Below, piece by piece: positions 61,705 through 64,000 of a DNA stretch of 64,000 nt. A model generated the notes under the pieces. The model worked only from the letters and a program-made list of their open reading frames with translations, had not been told where the DNA came from and ran no database searches. Numbering within the stretch: the first letter of the stretch is position 1; the number at the start of each line of letters is the position of its first letter. This DNA comes from Streptomyces halstedii. Lineage in GTDB: Bacteria; Actinomycetota; Actinomycetes; Streptomycetales; Streptomycetaceae. The position numbers were made by a program, and so were the translations under genes. The DNA is taken from the NCBI GenBank assembly GCA_000720535.1, contig JOAZ01000005.1, positions 248,001 through 312,000 on the forward strand. Reading direction: 5' to 3'.

Positions 61705-62487
61705 TCAGAGCCAGTTGCGCCGTCCGCCGACCTGCGCCAGCCACTGGTTGAGGTAGGCGGCCCAGTCCGTGCCCTGGTAGTCGTGCAGCCCGACCTTGAA
61801 GGCGCGGTAGGAGTCGCTGCCCTCGCTGAAGAGGCCCGCCTTCTTGTCCATCTCCAGCACGACGTCCATCTCACGGTCGTCGGCGACGAAGGTCAGCTCG
61901 ACCTGGTTCAGCCCGCGGTACTGCTGCGGCGGGTGGAACTCGATCTCCTGGTAGAAGGGCAGGCTCTGGCGGGTGCCCCGGATGTGGCCGCGCTCCATGT
62001 CGGCGCCGCGGAAACGGAACCCCAGCTGCCCGAACGCGTCGAGGACGGCCTGCTGCGCGGGGAGCGGGTGCACGTTGACGGCGTCGAGGTCGCCGGAGTC
62101 CACGGCACGGGCGATCTCCAGCTCCGTGGTCACCCCTATGTCCATGCCGTGCAGGTGCTGTCCGGCGAACATGGTGATCGGCGTCTCCCAGGGGATCTCC
62201 AGCCCGAAGGGGACGACGTGCACGGCGCCCGCCTGGACCTCGAAGGCACCGCCCAGCCGCAGCTTGGTGAACTCGATGTCCTGCTTGGTCTCCTGGTCAC
62301 CGCTCTCGACCTCGACACGTGCGCGCAGACCGACCGACAGGCCCTCGATCCGCTGGGCCACGGAACCGCCCTGCACGCGCACCTCACCCTGGACGACTCC
62401 ACCGGGGACGACATTGAGTTCGGTGAGCTCGGTCTCCACCGAGGCACCGCCGGCACCCATGCTCGCGAGCAGCCGCTTGAAGCCCAT
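61705..62487 (-). CDS. spo0M: Spo0M-like sporulation-control protein
   Basis: The 260-residue protein has the arrestin-like Spo0M fold: [72 protein letters not shown], then [29 protein letters not shown]. In Bacillus Spo0M influences the phosphorelay and cell morphology; in Streptomyces the family is kept but not well studied. AGGAGG lies 6 nt before the ATG. It is divergent from mpg. Confidence 0.9.
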
Positions 62488-62574: not shown

Positions 62575-62850
62575 ATGGAAACGCGCATGGACCGTACGCC
62601 GCTCACGCGGGACTTCTTCGACCGGCCCGTTCTGGACGTGGCCCCCGACCTGCTCGGCCGCGTCCTGGTACGCACCACCGACGAGGGGCCCATCGAACTG
62701 CGGCTGACGGAGGTCGAGGCGTACGCGGGGGAGATCGACCCCGGCTCCCACGCCTTCCGCGGGCCCACCCCCCGCAACAGCGTGATGTTCGGCCCGCCGG
62801 GGCATTCGTACGTGTACTTCACGTATGGCATGTCAAGGCGGTCAGCATGA
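62575..62850 (+). pseudogene. 3-methyladenine DNA glycosylase (Mpg/AAG) truncated at codon 89
   Basis: Ninety-one residues survive: [39 protein letters not shown] with the catalytic Glu, [22 protein letters not shown]. After GM the sequence turns to SRRSA and stops. The AAG family needs about 200 residues, and the product lacks the second half of the substrate pocket. Its GC is high, like its neighbours. The TGA overlaps the ATG of the next gene. It is the 5' part of the resident mpg gene. Confidence 0.8.
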
Positions 62851-63458
62851 ACGTCGATCTCCTCGCCCATCCTGCTGAAGAGGTCGCCCCCAAGCTGCTC
62901 GGGAGCATCCTCACCTGCAAGACCGCCGAGGGAACCGTGAGCATCGCGATTACGGAGACCGAGGCGTACTCCGGCACGGCTGACCCAGCTTCCCATGCCT
63001 ACCGAGGCCGGACACCCCGTAACGCCGTCATGTTCGGACCCGCAGGACACCTGTATGTCTACCGGTCCCACGGTCTCCACTGGTGCGCGAACGTCGTCAC
63101 CGGGACGGATGGCATCGCCTCAGCTGTCCTCATCCGGGCAGGCAGGGTCATCGAGGGGGTAGACCTGGCACGCAAGCGGAGAGGGGTCAGGGTCGAGACC
63201 CCACGTCTTGCCCGAGGCCCGGGGAACTTCTGCCAGGCACTCGGCATCACGGCAGAGCACAACGGCGCGGACCTCCTGACAGGCACCTCGGTCATGTTGT
63301 CCGAGGGCGAGTCGGTACCTACCGCGCTCATCCAGGTTGGTCCTCGGGTAGGCGTGAGCAAGGCCCACGACTGGCAACACCGGTTCTACCTCGCCGATGA
63401 TCCAACGGTCTCGGCGTACCGACTGAGCCCGCGAGCCAAACCGCCCGCCGGAGCCTGA
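62847..63458 (+). CDS. 3-methyladenine DNA glycosylase, second full-length copy
   Basis: The 203-residue protein is a complete Mpg/[91 protein letters not shown] and [20 protein letters not shown]. Its catalytic Glu and DNA-intercalating Tyr region are present. It removes alkylated purines. GC is lower than the flanking genes, and its N-terminal half is not a close copy of the truncated gene. ATGA overlap places it under the promoter of the broken gene. Confidence 0.9.
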
Positions 63459-63725
63459 GCCGCTGTGCGCCTCGCTCGCGGCCCGCCGGTGAGTCGGAGC
63501 GGAGTTGGACCAGAAGTTGCGTGATCGTTCGCGAGCGCGGCGCGTGACGCGTTCCTGGCCGGTCGAGTGACTGCCGACGTGCGCCGACTCGGACCGGACG
63601 GGTGGGTGTGACTGAGCACCCCAGTTGGCATTCGAGCAGCCGAGTTGGGATCTTGTCCCTGCCTGGTGCATGCGAATCAAAGCAGCAGACACAGATCTGG
63701 ACCGGTCAGGCGTGGGGGTGGGTGG
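63459..63725. other. Intergenic region of lower GC after the second mpg
   Basis: No gene is supported. AGTTGG recurs at about 63503, 63624 and 63643, and the base composition is lower in GC than the chromosome. This is consistent with imported DNA. The native mpg 3' half does not appear here. Confidence 0.5.
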
Positions 63726-64000
63726 ATGAGCGCAGATGCGGAGCGGGAGCGCTGGGAGCAGCGATCCGGAGAAGGCGTGGGGCCGCTGCAGTTCGGGATG
63801 TCTCCAGCCGAGGTCGCCGACGCACTGCTGGTCTCTGGGCCTCTGGCACGGGTCGGTGGTCCGTACGAGCAGGAAGACTTCCCGGACGGGGTGAAGGCGT
63901 TCTACGACGCGGGCAAGCTCGCATGCGTCGCGCTGGATGCAGCTACCGGTCCGCAGGTCTTCCTGGCCGGCTTCCCGTTGGCAGGGAGCGATCCAGTGCA
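63726..64000 (+). CDS. Unknown protein, C-terminus beyond window
   Basis: ATG 63726 opens 91 codons to the window end: MSADAERERWEQRSGEGVGP, then LQFGMSPAEVADALLVSGPLAR. The block GVGPLQFGMSPAEV is a small-domain pattern seen in many short actinobacterial proteins, some of them immunity-like. The gene reads in the same direction as the second mpg and has the same lower GC. I do not recognise its function. Confidence 0.6.
   Translation, partial: MSADAERERWEQRSGEGVGPLQFGMSPAEVADALLVSGPLARVGGPYEQEDFPDGVKAFYDAGKLACVALDAATGPQVFLAGFPLAGSDPV

Follow-up and report, generated by a model that had tools for sequence, protein, structure and literature searches.

The locus raises the question of how a chromosomal mpg gene came to be cut short and followed at once by a complete but distant copy of itself. 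The window, by which we mean the whole 64,000-nucleotide stretch of Streptomyces DNA that was analysed (G000:C5:248001-312000), holds the first part of this arrangement, and the contig runs 5.4 kb beyond the window end (locus L004, in which a position equals the window position minus 62000). A reverse-strand neighbour gene, presumably spoM and used here as the host marker, occupies 61705..62487 inside a listed open reading frame. Native mpg starts at 62575, and its 5' fragment, hereafter the stub (62575..62828, forward strand, positions 1-73 of the PF02245 profile), reads to YVYFTYGM and then continues as SRRSA to a TGA. The bases past the crossover core (62829..62850, forward strand) come from the end of the element and contain the M-S-R-R-S-A-TGA end of the frame, an SD-like AAGG and an ATGA overlap, in which the TGA of the stub (62848-62850) overlaps the ATG of the next gene (62847). 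This gene, mpg2 (62847..63458, forward strand), is an element-borne, complete and divergent gene for a predicted DNA-3-methyladenine glycosylase of 203 aa, and its start codon lies 19 bases past the last base of the core. The earlier note had described just such a full-length foreign mpg joined by an ATGA overlap. It had also placed the cut at codon 89; native mpg is indeed interrupted, but at codons 84-85 counted from 62575 (TATGG, 62824-62828).

The missing native 3' half had been predicted to lie at the other end of an integrated element, and it was found 6.0 kb downstream (L004:6860-7072, 4.9 kb past the window end), beside a gene for a large serine integrase that supplies the recombinase expected there. 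From core to core the element of the window measures 6,036 bp, and since the other half of native mpg sits at this distance downstream, chance can be excluded as the cause of the layout. After mpg2 come orfA (162 aa, 63726..64000 and on past the window to L004:2214, forward strand) and orfB (L004:2355-2852), then on the reverse strand the genes for a DUF7848 protein (L004:3057-3485), an HTH/DUF5753 regulator (L004:3571-4404) and a DUF6879 protein (L004:4401-4904), orfC (L004:4909-5190) and the integrase gene (484 aa, L004:5347-6801), which points away from the native 3' piece and into the element. The GC content falls after the junction as had been noticed, although only modestly: values are 0.63-0.69 for 500-base windows inside the element and 0.66-0.78 for 1-kb windows over the rest of the window. 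A recent tandem duplication was ruled out, as mpg2 and the native stub share only 52% identity over 77 residues. A relative would likewise leave a foreign mpg at the mpg locus if it recombined homologously with mpg or converted part of the gene, but this identity and the position of the native 3' half, 6 kb off and past an integrase, already contradict such an origin for the window's own copy, and gene conversion was rejected.

The two ends of the element share the core ACSTAYGGSATG, the short repeat that had been sought near the junction, and an uninterrupted mpg for comparison is present in a close relative (L156, from genome G065), whose gene is the nearest to the native fragment at 93% identity. 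The site reads ACGTACGGGATGTGG in this relative, ACGTATGGCATGTCAAGG at attL (TATGG, 62824..62828, forward strand) and ACCTATGGGATGCGG at attR (core L004:6860-6864). Host and element differ on either side of TAYGG, which confines the exchange to these five bases. The Tyr-Gly pair encoded there corresponds in the alignment, by our own count along it, to Tyr162-Gly163 of human AAG, in the DNA-wedge loop; PMC13299579 describes Tyr162 as the intercalating residue. TAYGG was present in 29 of the 29 genes uninterrupted at this site that are printed in the alignment, some of them from other families, but only 27 of the 51 attL sites retain it exactly. By eye, one base is missing at TAYGG in four of the 13 readable attR cores (L057, L013, L017 and L023; L061, L062 and the duplicate of the latter, L022, were set aside as unreadable) and in at least two attL cores (L098 and L110). 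These losses could be damage or imperfect rejoining at the exchange point. In our reading, the symmetry of the short arms (CATGCT / AGCATG) would centre the exchange on GG. The junction lies in the same short interval across unrelated genomes, which again speaks against gene conversion.

The integrase exceeds the cut-offs for PF00239 (E 8e-20) and PF07508 (1e-12) and falls just below that for PF13408 (24.2 against 25.3 bits), so that it has the Resolvase, Recombinase and zinc-ribbon architecture of large serine integrases with the last domain marginally under threshold, and it matches the PHROGs integrase family at E 5.5e-78. A brief common core flanked as attL and attR, with the crossover within TAYGG, is a further trait of this class seen in the window's element. 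The protein probably catalyses recombination between attP and attB.

Relatives of mpg2 (E <= 1e-70) were found in 41 of 392 Streptomyces genomes, the window's own included, and mpg2 adjoins the same host gene, spoM, in all 51 distinct loci that could be checked. A class-wide sample of 394 genomes, which included some Streptomyces, yielded no mpg2 relative above 62% identity outside Streptomyces; one of the named loci, L023, is from Actinacidiphila. Relatives of the integrase (E <= 1e-60) occurred in seven of the 392 Streptomyces genomes, again counting the window's own. All seven showed the junction of stub and mpg2, and six the native 3' piece, G179 being the one without it. A named collection gave 14 integrase loci, each with mpg2, integrase sequence that is either whole or broken, and a match to the native 3' piece, which is weak in L024; the stub was seen in 13, and the fourteenth (L015) is cut at the locus edge. 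Three of the named loci (L022, L024 and L026) duplicate sampled genomes and were left out of the counts of distinct loci.

In every one of the 41 carriers mpg2 was the only near-complete MPG match (E <= 0.001), truncated in G290, while the native matches were fragments, and none of the 41 had a whole native mpg together with mpg2. An intact frame of 201-211 aa was kept in 48 of 51 assessable distinct loci; of the exceptions, L016 has an apparent frameshift, in L125 the frame runs on, and L126 has lost the 3' end. These counts lend indirect support to the claim that the incoming gene replaces the function of the broken one. In L126 (G290:C1, about 5410000) the mpg2 match ends at residue 145 and the frame continues to 1817 codons, so that mpg2 looks fused to, or overrun by, downstream DNA. 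As a separate observation, 11 of 121 genomes of the genus (e.g. G008, G023 and G036) gave no match to the N-terminal half of native mpg at E <= 1e-5. Some Streptomyces may have lost mpg, and a few of these 11 assemblies are incomplete.

What the element carries besides mpg2 and the integrase varies from nearly nothing in L014, where the two genes are about 50 bases apart and the element is about 2.2 kb, to about 11 kb in L015. The window's orfA, which also occurs in L057 and L021, had no match in Pfam, NCBIfam, PHROGs or PADLOC. A block of orfC, DUF6879 and HTH/DUF5753 genes beside the integrase (L004:3571-5190) recurs in L015, L019, L059 and L061, with the strand reversed relative to mpg2 in L015, and we read it as a common cargo module. 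A defence role of the cargo found no support, as the sole PADLOC matches among eight proteins of the window's element were to the HTH protein. PMC9513070 defines an AICE by Rep and TraB besides an integrase. Eight chosen ORFs of the window's element, mpg2 and the integrase included, gave no match to Rep or TraB, and no transfer genes were found among them with Pfam and NCBIfam. Neither did the element resemble a prophage, since no structural or lysis match appeared among eight ORFs with Pfam or seven with PHROGs.

It is nevertheless conceivable that a phage satellite or AICE has decayed here and that mpg2 was a chance passenger beside attP. The HTH protein and the integrase both match PHROGs families, and L015 carries a protein like phage replication initiators together with phage-like unknowns. 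Against this, mpg2 is the only gene besides the integrase in all 14 named loci, and in an element as small as L014 little else is left. Phage sources were not apparent either: the integrase had matches in 471 phage records, none of them at 60% identity or more, the top match being the integrase of the Streptomyces phage phiCAM (JX889246; 99% query coverage, 35.8% identical). Pattern scans of viral_contigs, able to pick up only close relatives, yielded none for the integrase or for mpg2. We therefore regard the passenger explanation as quite improbable. Plasmids offered no source at this level (none of 108 plasmid records with an integrase match at >=60% identity), and all 13 phage records with an MPG match were below 60% identity. 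A putative 3-methyladenine DNA glycosylase in a Wolbachia phage WO record (MN180249) is 37% identical to mpg2.

The product of mpg2 belongs to the MPG / AAG glycosylases by family profile, scoring above the Pfam cut-off for PF02245 (E 4e-66) and the NCBIfam cut-off for NF002003 (DNA-3-methyladenine glycosylase), and by its active-site residues. It keeps the residues aligned to human Glu125, Tyr127, His136 and Tyr159, to which PMC13299579 assigns catalytic roles, and has His in place of Tyr162. It is thus predicted to be an active glycosylase. All 55 mpg2 rows share one spelling where native mpg reads YVYFTYGM, namely RSHGL instead of FTYGM, and because of this difference the window's copy has CACGG at the core position and not TACGG. 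The rescue copy would accordingly contain no attB of its own. We considered that RSHGL had evolved within the element as an escape from its own integrase, and dropped the idea because RSHG or RSYG is already found at the site in distant relatives outside Streptomyces (L130, L139, L140, L149 and L151). The donor allele probably lacked the integrase site from the start, the spelling being inherited and not evolved for the purpose. A third mpg-like type was seen in L093 (G020:C34:12500-16000), which is 42% identical to mpg2 and reads YVYRTHAVHRC at the site; its genome also has an uninterrupted native mpg.

The histidine at the intercalating position, with the catalytic-aligned residues kept, means that the activity of mpg2 may differ from that of the native enzyme. 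From this one could argue that mpg2 spread because it is a better or different enzyme, with another damage spectrum, the element being its vehicle and the rescue a side effect. Continued purifying selection on mpg2 at eroded loci, described below, would fit this idea as well. However, a pure gain needs neither a break at one codon pair nor a strict ATGA junction, and it would not lead one to expect that whole native mpg and mpg2 never occur together among the 41 genomes. We consider it a possible explanation, though a doubtful one.

The histories of the native pieces, mpg2 and the integrase were compared through sequence distances, with spoM standing for the host. In a well-kept set picked by hand (22 loci named, 21 usable), distances between stubs correlated with those of spoM (r 0.74) and not with those of mpg2 (r -0.04). 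Stub and native 3' piece correlated at 0.77 over 27 rows and at 0.58 over 20 well-kept rows, and integrase and mpg2 at 0.62 (17 rows), compared with 0.08 for integrase and spoM (16 rows) and -0.03 for mpg2 and spoM (49 rows). The spoM and mpg2 topologies were each rejected by the data of the other (AU p 2.6e-72 and 1.6e-51, 51 rows), with an mpg2 tree that is weakly resolved (stars on six of its 48 inner branches, and a bootstrap that had not settled). Taken together, the well-kept native pieces follow the history of the host gene, and mpg2 and the integrase have a different history in common. This division speaks against gene conversion; no analysis here favoured it, and we give it almost no credence. 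When all 38 distinct stubs were used, the correlation was 0.42 with spoM and 0.30 with mpg2 (0.33 with three duplicates kept), and the value of 0.30 was reached in 2 of 999 permutations with duplicates removed. This goes against wholly separate histories, and a shared age of decay may lie behind it. A spoM tree was built for 44 non-carriers and 51 carriers, 10 of the latter being named loci that had been selected because they have the integrase. The carrier label takes 32 changes on this tree, compared with a mean of 31.7 after shuffling, and well-supported branches force no fewer than 22 of them. The tree does not distinguish gains from losses, and spoM is a single gene and not a species tree.

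The loci differ in their state of decay. Of the 41 genomes with mpg2, two have a whole integrase and 13 a partial one, and in the other 26 no integrase was detected. Upstream of mpg2 a stub match is present in 35 genomes; on the downstream side 26 show a native 3' remnant, some contigs ending soon after mpg2. The earlier note had held that the same layout in relatives lacking any insertion would speak against an integrated element. Such genomes do exist literally, as 26 genomes have mpg2 at the mpg locus with no detectable integrase, but 14 of these 26 retain the native 3' remnant beyond mpg2. These remnants and the integrase fragments in 13 of the 41 genomes lead us to read the integrase-less loci as eroded insertions. 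With our own division into integrase-bearing and eroded loci, the median pairwise dN/dS was 0.15 and 0.21 for mpg2 and 0.17 and 0.35 for the stub, compared with 0.20 for the region in question where mpg is uninterrupted. The value for the stub at eroded loci is elevated, yet well below 1, and by this measure mpg2 is under purifying selection at the eroded loci.

The stub also keeps its reading frame. Of 51 distinct loci, seven had no N-terminal stub anchor above our threshold, and in 39 of the remaining 44 the native frame is open to the ATGA overlap; three of the five frameshifted stubs stop seven bases past the usual stop. Among stubs with a net change in length the frame was kept in 16 of 21 (p 7e-5 against one third), and among those with deletions of at least 39 bases in nine of 11 (p 1e-3). 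Some small in-frame changes may predate the insertion. Retention of the frame despite loss of sequence and length is what translational coupling would select, and it suggests that stub and mpg2 are coupled. The junction geometry and the retained stub frame likewise point to mpg2 borrowing the promoter of native mpg.

Some eroded cases could have arisen without any integration of their own, if homologous recombination had brought in a locus that was eroded beforehand. In G110 spoM is 98.3% identical to that of the uninterrupted G013, yet a heavily eroded element is present and the stub is just 92.6% identical to the corresponding part of G013. On the mpg2 tree, however, eroded and integrase-bearing copies are mixed (14 changes, shuffled mean 12.5, under our division), and thus no spreading eroded clade is seen. 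Such import is unlikely in our opinion.

We consider it very probable that a 6.0-kb element was inserted into mpg by its serine integrase, that mpg2 took over and that the remainder erodes. In this sequence of events, the large serine integrase would bring the element into mpg by recombining attP with attB, the latter being the conserved codons for the Tyr-Gly pair that falls, by alignment to human AAG, in the DNA-wedge loop. A full divergent mpg is the first gene of the element. The host frame passes the core and stops in the ATGA overlap, so that mpg2 would be read from the host's mRNA, most likely by ribosomes fresh from finishing the stub. Later the integrase, the cargo and the native 3' half would decay, as would part of the stub, and mpg2 and, mostly, the stub frame would be retained.

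Islands that carry a copy of the gene they break are already known. In Vibrio cholerae S24, the island called recA mobile element (RME) interrupts a conserved gene for DNA repair and has a complete divergent copy of it at one end and an integrase at the other (PMC4405046); the mpg element shares this arrangement inside the broken gene. The RME is 32.8 kb long and has a 'phage integrase', 9-bp inverted repeats and LexA sites in the recA promoter region. In contrast, the mpg element has a large serine integrase, many of its relatives retain the replacement alone, and mpg2 starts so close to the att core that the integrated form leaves no space for a separate mpg2 promoter. Excision of the RME was shown to restore the native gene (PMC4405046). 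The native 3' half in G000 is short of 183 bases (61 codons) compared with L156, and because of this loss circular excision there would leave no whole mpg, only a native gene lacking the 61 codons; the G000 host may depend on the element for mpg. L013 and L017 combine a whole integrase with a 3' half that is still open. A 4.2-kb insert in a Clostridium difficile gene for thymidylate synthetase (Knetsch 2011, as cited in PMC4405046) also disrupts a gene and brings a version of it, which in Clostridium is, by that citation, the more active one. According to PMC10111431, the helper-embedded PICI 11capE of E. coli is inserted in a capsid gene and brings one of its own; its target, unlike ours, is a prophage gene, and the attP of these PICIs is described there as containing no replacement sequence. 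Also according to that paper, islands in tRNA genes or icd similarly integrate without loss of the target function, but their attP replaces the cut sequence, whereas here a whole divergent gene would take over. Our literature search on the site and mechanism, mostly at the level of titles, recognised no description of an element in Streptomyces mpg. New here are the genus-wide recurrence, the serine integrase, the start codon beside the att core, the apparently coupled stub with its kept frame and the erosion to a replaced gene.

When a distant orthologue takes the place of a gene at its old locus, homologous recombination is usually given the credit. At slightly better than even confidence, we propose that orthologue replacement has occurred here repeatedly by site-specific recombination, through an element resembling a rescue drive that cuts codons that are hard to change, rescues the function, creates dependence as soon as the native half has decayed, and vanishes. 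If this is true, the rescue copy would be promoterless, free of the integrase target and translationally coupled to the stub of its victim, and in roughly one in ten of the sampled Streptomyces the endpoint would look like nothing more than the horizontal replacement of a single gene. One site in one genus displays states that range from a whole integrative element to a bare replaced gene. The locus may thus serve as a test case for how selfish elements become indispensable, with a promoterless rescue gene coupled to the stub of the gene it broke, and the integrase with its conserved attB might offer an extra integration site for Streptomyces genetics.
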